DNA of 64,000 bases, taken from NCBI GenBank assembly GCA_949775045.1, contig OX459109.1, positions 1,970,608 to 2,034,607 on the forward strand. Direction: 5' to 3'. Below are positions 10,701-16,700 of the stretch, one piece after another. The stretch is from Metridium senile (taxonomy: Eukaryota; Cnidaria; Anthozoa; Actiniaria; Metridiidae). The notes under the pieces were generated by a model. The model worked only from the letters and a program-made list of their open reading frames with translations. It did not search any database and had not been told where the DNA came from. Every line of letters starts with the position of its first letter. Position 1 is the stretch's first letter. The position numbers and the translations under genes are program-made.

Positions 10701-13700
10701 GATAATCCACGCGTGTTTTATAGCTGCACAAAGCACGCACGTGCGTTTTCTATTTCTTTATTTTTGAAGTTAGATATAATTTTTTTTTATTATTATAATT
10801 TGTAATCATCCTGATGAACTTATCGTGTTGAAACATATAGTCTAACACACAATGCAATGATCGTCAATCGTTACTATAATCGAAGGAACATATGTCCTTT
10901 CAATAATTATATCCAAATAAGTCTACAAAACAGGCCGAGATTTTGTTGTATATACTGCTATTCAGAATACAATTAAATATCAAGTTCAAAAACGGTTCCT
11001 GCCATACACCATTTCAAAAAACGTTGTCAGAAGGAGATCTGAATCTGCAATCTTTTCTCATTAAAAATTTGTTTGCGTGCACTTTCTGGCTTCGGATATG
11101 GCGATGGTAAATATAAATCTGAAGGTGCTAAGTGCAAAAAAACAAAAAAAGGGCCAATTCATTTCGGTATCAGATTGCAGATTCAGATCTCCTTCTGACA
11201 ACGTTTTTTGAAATAGGTGTATACAGCCTATTTAAAAATGTTGACTATTAAAACTTTTCGCAGGATATTGCATTCTGGTTCCAAGACTAATATTTCCCTG
11301 TTTTTATATAGAATAACGACTACATGGCAACAGCTCCAAATGTATCCTCCAACCTAGCCTCTCATATAAACAGAACGAAAGATATCCACTCGAAAACTGT
11401 CAACGCCGAGGCTTTAGCTAGAGGTTTGTCATGGAATAAAACACTGTTGAAACTTGAAAGCAAATCTCTACTATACACACATCTTTGTCTTTGTCTTTGC
11501 TTTTTTTCTCTCTCGTCGTTCTAGAGATTGTGATGGTAATGATGGTGATGGTGGTGATGATGCTGATGGTGATGATTATGATGATGGTAATGATGCTGAT
11601 GCAGATAGTGTTGATGATGGTGATGGTGTTGATGATGATGATTGTGATGACGATTATGGTGATGATGATGACGGTGATGATGATGATGGTAATGATGCTG
11701 CTGATGATGATGATGATGATGACGGTGATGATGATGATGACGGTAATGATGCTGATGGTGATGATGGAGTTGATGATGATTATTATGATGCTGATGGTGA
11801 TGATTATGATGATGATGATGATTATATTATTTTTCCGAAGATCTGGATGCACTTCTTCAAAACCTCATCAAAACCTTTACTGCACATGTCAACCACGGCA
11901 CCCAGATTGTGAGATTAGCCAATGAAAGCGTAACACGTCACATGGTCAGAAACTTCGTACCCCACAATAATACCGTCGATATGAATCTTAAAGATGCCGA
12001 CAACTTGACCGCCTTTGTTGCCATGGTTGCAAAGAAGGTAACACTAATTCAGTTAATTATACAATTTTTCGATTCAAATTCGATACCCTGACCACTAGAC
12101 CATCAGGCCTCTCCTCTCATTTACAACAGAAAATCCAATATAAAAGAGTAACCTGCGAGGGCTACATTCATTTTAAAACTTTAACAACATTTTGTTGAAA
12201 AAATACTCATCAGTAAGCAATGATGTCCATTGTACTTGCAGCTCGTTAACCAAACATCGGTTTCTTCCGATCTAAACGTACAAGTCAAAAACAGCAGAGA
12301 AAACCTTGCAGAGCTTGTGATGGGATGGAGCACAACACATGCGCAGTTCATCAGTCGCATTGAAAGTATTAGAAATCAATTTAGTGGTATACATGATGTC
12401 GTTCGGCAGACTCAGGTAAATCAAGTTATAGTTAAACAAATAAATGAACGAACGGACGGACGTACGAACGCACATACGTACAAACAAATGAATGAACGTA
12501 CGTACGTTCGTTCGAACAGACAAACGAACGAATAAGGAAATAAACAAAAGAACGAACAAAGAAACAACAACAAACAAAACAACAGACTGACAAACGAAGA
12601 AAGTAACAAACACAAAATTGAACGACCGAACGAACAGACAAACAGACAGAGAACGAATAAATATGCAAACACATGTACGAACAAGCAAACGACACACAAG
12701 CAAACTAAAAAAAAAACAAGCAAACTAATAAACAAAGAAGCAAACAGGCAAGGCCGGAATCCAAAAACAAACAAAAGGCCACTGACTAAAAAAAACCAGA
12801 CAAACAAGCAAAAAAAAAGGCTACTGACAAACAAACAAACAAACAAACAAACAAAAGGCTACTGACAAACAAAAGGCTACTGACAAACAAACAAACAAAT
12901 AAATAAACAAACAAACAAACAAAAGGCTACTGACAACAAAAATAAACAACAACAACAACAAAAACAATCAAGTTATGAATGAATTGTAATTGAATTCATG
13001 CTCACGTTCATCATAAAAACTTGCATTTTTATATCAAAGACAAACTGACATGAATTCTGTTATAATCTTGATACTTTAGATGATTCTTTCGATGGAGATG
13101 CAGCGTCTCAACGAAGTAAAACCAGTTCACAATAATTCCAAACAGATACTCAATGATACTAGTACCACCATACAGTCGGCTCTAACGTCATTTGAGGTAA
13201 CAACCTGTCGGCAACATTCACTCTTTTCAAAATATGTTAATGCGTTCACTTAGTTAGCGATGGCGATAAGACCATTATTAAATGGTCTTATTACGTTGAA
13301 GCCCTCCCACCTCGCCGATATTATTCGTGTTTAGATGTATGCCCATACTATCTCAACAATAACCTCCATGTTCTTGACAAGAATAATGATTGTAAGCACC
13401 TTGATTATTCGTGTTAAAATCTATGCCCATAATAATATTCCAACAATATAAAACTCCATTCCGGCTTCTCCTTCGCAGAGCATCTCACCTTTTAATCATA
13501 GAAGTAAGCATATTTTTTCTTTTGGGTAGTTATACAAGGCAATGATTACAGAGGTCAGCGGTGAGGTTCAAATATCCATGCACAAGTATGATTTCGCTGG
13601 GAAATGGTTCGGAATGAAGATCCTGGCTGCTCGTAACCTTTCACCACGTGACCTGGTCAGCGGTAAAGCAGATCCGTACCTCTTGATCTCATTGATCCCA

Positions 13701-16700
13701 GGGGATCATGGGACACGGAAATCTAATGTTAAAACAGGTAAAATCAGCAAAGCCAATCTACTATCTTTAAAAGACGTTTATAAAATATGTTGCAATTTCC
13801 ACTGGCTGAGGAACGAAAGAAGTGGAAAATGTTTTCTCTCACACCAAGGGAGCCTGGGCCGAGAGGCCTTAATCACGTGGGCAGGGTTTTCGTTTAGTTG
13901 CTTTTTCGCTGTCCGCCATTGACTTAGTTGTAACCCATGCAGTGCCCGCCCAACCCTAGTACAGTTTCATGTATTCAAAATATGTAATGTAATGTTTCAT
14001 TCAGAAGAAATAGTTTTGTAGTGCAATGTTAGCATAATAGCTTGTTGAGTTGTTTAATTGTTAATAAAATAGTCAGTTGGCGGTAGTCGGCAACAATAAG
14101 CTCCCAGTGGTGTGTGAGAATTGGTATTTCCCTAAAGAGATTGTGTAACCCCACCTTACGTTCCAGGTACACTGAATCCCACATGGGAAGAATACGAGCA
14201 GATCTTCAAGTTCAACATTGCGCATGAGCAGTTGAAAAAATCCAGGCTAAGGATACAGGTATTTGATTCTGATCCTGGTAAAGACGATGACTTTATGGGT
14301 GAAGTTTACATCGATTTGTCTGCTGTTGGAGACCAGACTATTACTAAGTGGTATCCCTTACGAGCCGAGGTAATTTATATATTTTATTTATATATTAACA
14401 GATTTAGTACCCACTGTAGCATACACATCGCCCTATGTAAGGGAATCCGGATAATTCGTGGATTCCGGATTCCGAGTGTGCGGATTCCGGATTCCAATTT
14501 TTTTTTTCGAAAATGATGGATTCCGGATTCCAATATAAACTGGATTCCGGATTCCAAGACCTGGATTCTGGATTCCAGAGAGCTGGATTCCGGATTCCAA
14601 AGTCGATTTTTTTCGTGGATTCCGGATTCCCTTACATGGGGCGCGTATACATAGCGAACAAACCCAACCCCAGTAAGAAAGAATACCTAGCCCCAGAAAC
14701 TTATAAGAAAAACACCAATGATAATTATAATAGTAATTAATAATAATTAAATATTGAAAAGTATATTTAAAAGATGTGTGTATAATTTAGCACTGACACA
14801 TAGTACTTAACAATTATTCGCCGAAGGCGAAGTGATTATCGGTGAATATTCACCGAGCGGTGAGTCTTCGAGCTGCGAGGTAAATATTAACCGATAATCA
14901 CTTCGCCCGAGGTGAATAATCGTTTTAGTATAAATACAAAGGTGATTATTTCAAAAAAGAAAGAAGGAACCAGCATTGAAAGTGAAAATATTTAATGCAT
15001 ATAATGACAAAAAAAAAAAAAACGTGAAAATTTACTATGATACACCAAACTTAGTAGCTTCTTTTGTCGATTTTGGGACAGCATTTTCTTTAAAGTTTTC
15101 AATTTCATCTTCGCTAACAGTGACAAAACAACTACTGGCAGCCATTTTGTCCGAAAAGGTGATTATCGGCTGATAATCCGAGATAGCAAACCAATCAGAG
15201 CGCACGATTTTGTATAATCACCTTTGTATTTATACTAAAAGCGATTAGTCCTGCGACATTTAGGGCAGATAAGTTTATAAGTTCTAATATTATCTTGGTC
15301 AAAAACATTGTTTAACATTAAAAAGAGGAAGGTTTGAACTTAATGTCGTTGGGTAAGGCGTTCCACATATTCATATTTATTGGAAATAATAATTTTGATT
15401 TAAAATAGAATAGCCGACAGGGGCGTAGTGTATATCACGCAAATACGTACGTGCGTACTTGAGACGGAAAAGTTTCAAATGTTTTTTAATCGTTTTCCAT
15501 GTATTTTTGTATACCCGTGCGTCACAATGACCACGCTAAGACACTGGGGCCGGTTGTACAAAGGGCTTATAAAGTTATCCGCGGATAAACGTTATCCACT
15601 GCATAGGTTTTTTTAATAGATTTTATCCGTTGGATAAGGATTTATCCGGTGAATAGCGCTATCCAGGCTACGTACAACCGGCCCCTGGCCGAGCAATCTT
15701 ATTTCGATTTATCTTTTGCTTCAGGACGTATCTCAGCTTGAAAGTGGTAATTTCAAGTCAAATGCAGGTGGACTGGTTGATGTCACTAATCTACTACAAG
15801 CACTAAAGGACAAGGCAGTGACCATCTTGAGTACTGTACATGCAAGACTACTCGCTGCGCATAAGAACGCGCAACTCATGAAGAACCAATCAGAAGCCAT
15901 GAAACAGTAAGAAAAACACTTTGTTCCTATGTAATATATAAAGGAAAGGAGAAGAGAAAAGAGGGCCAGTTAGCTGGCAATAAATTATTGAAAAATGAAA
16001 AATAATAAGGGAATCTATAACAAACTTTCTTTCTTTTTTGCAGTGAGTTTTCTGCGGTAAACAGCCATGGCGAGACCGCTGTTCAAGCTATCCAGCGGTA
16101 TATTGAGATCGAACGTTTGATCAACAATTCGATAACTACTCTCACCGGGGCACAGAACACTATCGTGAACATTACATCACAGGTAAAAAAAATAAAATAA
16201 AATAAATGGAAATAATAATAAATGGGAATAATAGAACAATAACCTCTTTGTTCTTGACAATAATAATGATTGTAAGCACTTCGATTATTCATCGTATATA
16301 GATGTATACCCATAATATCTCAACAATAACCTTCATGTTCTTGACAAGAGTAATGATTGTAAGCACCTCCATTATTCATCGTATACAGATGTATGCCCAT
16401 ATTCACCTCGGTCCATTACACAATCTTTATCTGAAAATTAAAGACCCCTAAAAACATGCTCACACGTATTTCAATTTACTTCCACAGCTTAATCGACTTT
16501 CTGCATCAGCACTTATAACAATGGCTCGACAGGAGAAGTTAAAGGCCACAACCTTATACGATAACTTTGTGAAAAGAAACTTGAGCCAAAACGGTGTCGG
16601 TATGTATGGTCAGCGGATCTTACTATTACTTTGGACTACTTTATGATATTCCCCTTTCCAAAATATAACAAGTTATAGTAGGGAAGGAGACTCTAGATAA

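Follow-up and report, generated by a model that had tools for sequence, protein, structure and literature searches.

A C2 exon pair among the coil exons of a laminin alpha gene

The window analysed here is a stretch of 64,000 nucleotides from the sea anemone Metridium senile (contig OX459109.1, positions 1,970,608 to 2,034,607 of the forward strand), and all positions given below without a chromosome label refer to it. Laminins are major constituents of the basement membrane. The plus strand of the window carries a gene that we assign to the laminin alpha chains, and between two exons encoding the coiled coil of this chain lie two further exons, C2a and C2b, which together encode a C2 domain. 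The four exons concerned are the following:

13080..13196, plus strand: coil exon a5, 117 nt, phase 0-0, preceding the C2 pair
13530..13737, plus strand: first C2 exon (C2a), 208 nt, entered in phase 0 and left in phase 1, with the loop-1 aspartates D41 and D48
14167..14369, plus strand: second C2 exon (C2b), 203 nt, entered in phase 1 and left in phase 0, with the loop-3 aspartates D103, D105 and D111
15725..15906, plus strand: coil exon a6, 182 nt, phase 0-2, following the C2 pair, with a glycine-containing stretch at its start

C2a and C2b add up to 411 nt or 137 stop-free codons, are flanked by AG acceptors and GT donors, and combine outer phases of 0 and 0 with an inner phase of 1. An earlier annotation of this DNA, made from the letters alone (hereafter the original prediction), had proposed a complete calcium-type C2 domain inside a laminin alpha coil, and its coordinates, phases and codon count for the exon pair were all reproduced. 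A profile search with the 137 residues, which it had suggested as a check, returned the Pfam C2 domain (PF00168) with 78.3 bits (E 6e-22; the curated cut-off is 22 bits) and covered positions 5-104 of the 104 positions of the profile. All five calcium-binding aspartates of C2 domains (D41, D48, D103, D105 and D111) are present at the positions known from synaptotagmin, and coil exons lie on both sides. The presence of a C2 exon pair with an intact domain within a laminin alpha gene is therefore confirmed.

The domain resembles the C2 domains of the Piccolo C2A, RIM and synaptotagmin type, with which it shares the five aspartates and a WYPL ending. Among the best 60 of 88 matched PDB sequences, Piccolo C2A (1rh8) is the top match with a single C2 domain (61.4 bits, residues 9-136), whereas the 79.7 bits obtained for synaptotagmin-1 are the sum over two C2 domains (34.7 and 43.1 bits). 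In alignments read by eye, the spacing of loop 3 is that of synaptotagmin-1, whereas loop 1 is one residue longer. The domain contains no cysteines. C2 domains of the Piccolo, RIM and synaptotagmin type work at the cytosolic face of membranes, whereas the C2 domain described here is encoded within the gene of a secreted matrix protein.

The exon pair might also be read as a separate small C2 gene, which is nested in a laminin intron, uses its own start and is not spliced to laminin. An ATG at 13542, in frame and four codons past the acceptor, and ATTAAA signals at 14746 and 15317 would suit such a gene; however, both outer edges of the pair are splice sites whose phase agrees with that of the host intron, and reading through beyond 14369 yields a short, unlike tail with a stop near 14514. 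We consider a nested gene very improbable.

The host gene

The remaining parts of the host gene within the window are:

82..8886, plus strand: laminin EGF-like (LE) modules 5' of the coil, edges approximate
9682-9833, 10336-10449, 11312-11423, 11841-12037 and 12242-12415, plus strand: coil exons a0-a4, beginning with ACPEC
16044-16182, 16488-16599, 17156-17287, 17700-17888 and 18323-18639, plus strand: coil exons a7-a11, of which a11 spans the end of the coil and the beginning of LG1
19572..32248, plus strand: LG exons with a proline-rich linker ahead of LG4, edges approximate

Fifteen exons (a0-a12 and the C2 pair, 9682-19702) can be chained in phase and free of stops, both with and without the C2 pair, and a5 and a6 meet in phase 0 when the pair is left out. 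Since the outer phases match, the pair can be skipped without a change of frame, as had been predicted. In the joined pieces of the window, nine stretches of LE modules were found with PF00053, and LG modules were found by profile 3' of the coil; five LG modules were counted by reading the exons rather than by Pfam, and the linker was read by eye. The LG4-5 region matches laminin alpha-1 (2jd4, E 6e-11). An LN domain (54.2 bits) with a signal-peptide-like start lies on the same strand about 11 kb 5' of the window, at C15:1959348, and is joined to the gene by position and not by an exon chain. The gene thus shares with laminin alpha chains such as alpha-1 the LN domain, the LE modules, the coil and the LG modules with a linker ahead of LG4, but differs from them in that its coil stays below the threshold of the Pfam Laminin_I and Laminin_II models and carries a C2 domain. 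The assignment to the laminin alpha chains is based on the domain order, the LG4-5 match and an exon order common to a second alpha gene.

Within the LE region, the stretches 82-279 and 6322-6549 as well as 838-1185 and 7492-7830 form closely similar pairs with more than 6 kb between the copies, as would result from a tandem duplication within the laminin gene. Between LE blocks, an open stretch at 2940-3230 matches no Pfam model at E up to 0.01; the same holds for a frame on the minus strand at 45325-45738, which begins like a signal peptide and includes a stretch rich in proline and threonine.

A sister laminin alpha gene with a C2-free matching intron

The same chromosome carries a second laminin alpha-like gene (C15:12374335-12410224). 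Its LN exon is located at C15:12374335, and a query with the LG region of the window gene finds an LG exon at C15:12410051 (42% identity, E 2.9e-7); a further weak match to the LG region, at C1:6084328, contains four stops. Four coil exons of the sister gene, p5-p8, were delimited in the stretch L066 (C15:12394000-12402999), and with edges picked by eye in knowledge of those of the window they measure 117, 170, 139 and 112 nt with phases 0-0, 0-2, 2-0 and 0-1, compared with 117, 182, 139 and 112 nt and identical phases for a5-a8. The alignment of p5-p8 with the window coil, which is independent of the exon lengths, scores 88, while shuffled sequences reach a mean of 12.7 (standard deviation 11.7, maximum 51.5, n=500). 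When p5-p8 was slid along the alpha coil of the window, the optimum was found at residue 246 with a score of 92.5 (the true start of a5 is residue 251), whereas starts at a distance of over 60 residues reached at most 68.0 and a laminin beta coil of the same genome at most 46.5.

The intron between p5 and p6 (579 bp) corresponds to the intron that holds the C2 pair in the window gene. A hidden Markov model (HMM) built on five C2 sequences from this genome, the laminin C2 included, was searched against L066, the window from 9 to 20 kb and the stretch L055 at E up to 10; it matched only the two window exons and found no C2 in the p5-p6 intron. A genome scan with the Pfam C2 model also gave no match in C15:12.37-12.41 Mb, which is a weak test, since the same scan missed C2a. 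The matching intron of the sister gene is thus without a C2 domain, an observation that is new here.

In a variant of the reading in which the exons are a regular part of the gene, with which it overlaps in confidence, C2a and C2b would be cassette exons, included in some tissues or stages only, and most laminin would be plain-coiled. The coil of the sister gene is seen without C2, the outer phases of the pair are 0 on both sides, and omitting the pair keeps the chain open; however, the splice sites of the C2 exons look ordinary, so that nothing marks these exons as weak. We regard the use as a cassette as possible, but hold this view tentatively.

Integrity and origin of the exon pair

A tblastn search of the genome with the 137 residues gave five matches, namely the two C2 exons and three others. 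The nearest relative is located at C1:59786519, beside a second C2-like frame, and is 42% identical over 77 residues. In a DNA search of 13200-15724, the C2 exons were not found a second time among the 40 of 4020 candidates that were scored, so that the lack of a match is no proof of rarity. The search did reveal repeats on both sides of C2b:

13778..14130, no strand assigned: repeat in the intron between C2a and C2b, with ten listed copies elsewhere that are 90-98% identical
14800..15250, no strand assigned: second repeat, in the intron 3' of the C2 pair

As no close second copy of the C2 domain was found among the tblastn matches and the DNA candidates scored, a recent stray fragment is unlikely. 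The window contains no N letters, and an assembly error that placed a C2 fragment here, named in the original prediction as a possible objection, has left no sign. An origin of the pair as a recent fragment or an assembly fault is thus not supported.

A further explanation is a C2 fragment that came to lie in the intron and either has ceased to be spliced in or never took part in splicing. The repeats in both adjoining introns would be in line with such a relic, as would the codon usage of the C2 exons, which is not clearly coding-like. However, the 137 codons are free of stops, all five aspartates and the splice sites are intact, and no close donor copy is present. In 3000 simulated runs of neutral mutation, which started from the present C2 sequence and introduced 0.2 substitutions per site, drift to 64% identity left the frame stop-free in 3.2% and both stop-free and with the five aspartates in 0.2% of the runs; an open frame with the aspartates is thus rarely retained. 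The GC content of the C2 exons (44.5%) is at the level of the coil exons (44.0%) and differs from that of the introns (35.7%). Taken together, a relic appears improbable to us.

Exon shuffling had been proposed on the basis of the phases, and the C2-free matching intron in a second alpha gene of the same genome now adds to this: the pair shows both the symmetric 0-0 outer phases and a corresponding intron without C2. The simplest history would be the shuffling of a Piccolo/RIM-type C2 domain into a phase-0 intron, and a gain in the window gene, rather than a loss from the sister gene, would likewise be the simplest course of events.

The donor is not pointed out by the position of the inner intron. 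Many C2 genes have an intron close to the TLNP codons; the C2 domain of class II PI3K is split at the codon before TLNP in phase 2 rather than in phase 1, and other C2 genes are split nearby, so that the intron position is not decisive as a clue. A gene with several C2 domains is located on the minus strand, opposite to laminin, at C15:1946922-1950907, about 8.4 kb before the laminin LN exon. As a source of the pair it was rejected, since it is absent from the five tblastn matches, and one of its C2 exons shows 31% identity where the two could be matched.

Position of the C2 domain in the laminin trimer

In the alpha coil, the C2 pair starts about 289 residues after the beginning of the coil and ends 318 residues before LG1. 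In the beta chain of this genome (LN domain at C8:10935249, laminin IV-B domain at C8:10955555-10957393), about 222 residues separate the start of the coil from a Cys-rich knob of 23 residues, and 349 residues lie between the knob and the C-terminal cysteine. Comparison of 289/318 in alpha with 222/349 in beta places the C2 domain about 31-67 residues nearer to the LG end than the beta knob. A position of the C2 domain exactly opposite the knob is therefore not supported, and the original prediction, which had placed the domain at the boundary of coil domains II and I marked by the beta knob, needs to be corrected: the domain lies near the level of the knob, not at it. The two inserts are alike in being small domains within the coil; however, the Cys knob has another fold and belongs to another chain and another level than the alpha C2.

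The glycine-containing stretch at the start of a6, directly behind the C2 domain, likely represents a helix break. A simple heptad score along the alpha coil gave weak registers only. For comparison, laminin-332 is reported to have a hinge about 220 residues from the end of the coil (PMC10888245).

A putative calcium-loaded side module

We think that the exon pair is probably a genuine, shuffled-in part of this sea anemone laminin alpha gene and that it would provide the chain with a constitutive, calcium-stabilised side module. According to this model, a phase 0-0 exon pair for a C2 domain of the Piccolo/RIM/synaptotagmin type entered a phase-0 intron between coil exons of one of the two alpha genes and, presumably included in the mRNA, would give rise to a folded C2 domain. 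The two ends of a C2 domain sit close together, and the domain can therefore loop out from a single helix. In the triple coil, it may thus protrude from the alpha strand just before the glycine-containing stretch, about 318 residues above LG1.

The five aspartates would hold calcium permanently in the matrix. The original prediction had suggested a sensor of membrane lipids or calcium. A sensor is unlikely outside cells, where calcium is presumably high and steady; under such conditions the C2 domain would always be loaded, and we favour a constitutive module over a sensor. According to work cited in PMC3171411, the C2 domain of perforin has a function outside the cell that depends on calcium aspartates. 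Perforin is similar in having an extracellular C2 domain with calcium aspartates, but is a pore-forming protein without a coil, and it is likened here by description and not by sequence.

In the last and weakest step of the model, the C2 domain would bind an anionic ligand at an intermediate point of the long arm; lipid head groups, sulphated glycans and partners in the matrix are candidates. Sulphated glycolipids are known to anchor laminin through LG4 (PMC11260871). It is tempting to speculate that some sea anemone laminins acquired a calcium-loaded C2 arm by exon shuffling once the alpha gene had been duplicated, and that this arm attaches the basement membrane to anionic lipids or sulphated glycans without the help of the LG modules; we regard this as doubtful.

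Several results weigh against the model or parts of it. The tip of loop 3 of the C2 domain is PGK, without a bulky hydrophobic residue, and the net charge of the domain is -1, both of which argue against lipid insertion. The codon log-odds of the C2 exons is -0.05 per codon and does not separate them from introns, since it falls below the 95th percentile of random intron 411-mers (0.025; mean -0.27). In a protein collection from which no laminin of any kind was retrieved, searches at E up to 0.01 yielded no orthologue among 5189 candidates and none among 11. For the host gene, no Laminin_I or Laminin_II match was obtained in the alpha coil at E up to 1, and the coil with the start of LG1 gives a better match to an agrin LG module (E 2.7e-4) than to laminin alpha-1 (E 0.02); the beta coil of the same genome also lacks a match to a laminin model at E up to 1. 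For the sister gene, the edges of p5-p8 were chosen among 10, 3, 19 and 23 open AG/GT pairs within 60 nt, and no Pfam model matches the LG1-like stretch with which L066 ends, so that the gene's LN, coil and LG parts are joined by position only. Finally, the C2 domain might be ancestral in laminin alpha chains and have been lost from the sister gene, as two genes in one genome leave the direction of change unfixed. We give this little credence: to our knowledge, no laminin alpha chain has been described with a C2 domain in its coil. A literature search on laminin and C2 domains, covering titles and abstract openings, turned up no such laminin, and in the main text of a paper on the Nematostella matrisome the term 'C2 domain' does not occur in a word search (PMC12549020).

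As far as we know, the architecture of laminins is held to be fixed across animals, with a coil that forms a rod without folded inserts save the beta knob. With an intact C2 domain of an intracellular type in this coil, there would be proof that exon shuffling can add a side module to an old matrix protein and that an insert of 137 residues is compatible with the triple coil. The finding also raises the question of what a C2 domain binds outside cells; if the proposed arm exists, it would represent a second adhesion point on laminin.

Elsewhere in the genome, C3:9545248-9620891 and C3:10010875-10053411 hold seven LN matches, four of which form a row on the minus strand: a cluster of laminin- or netrin-like genes.

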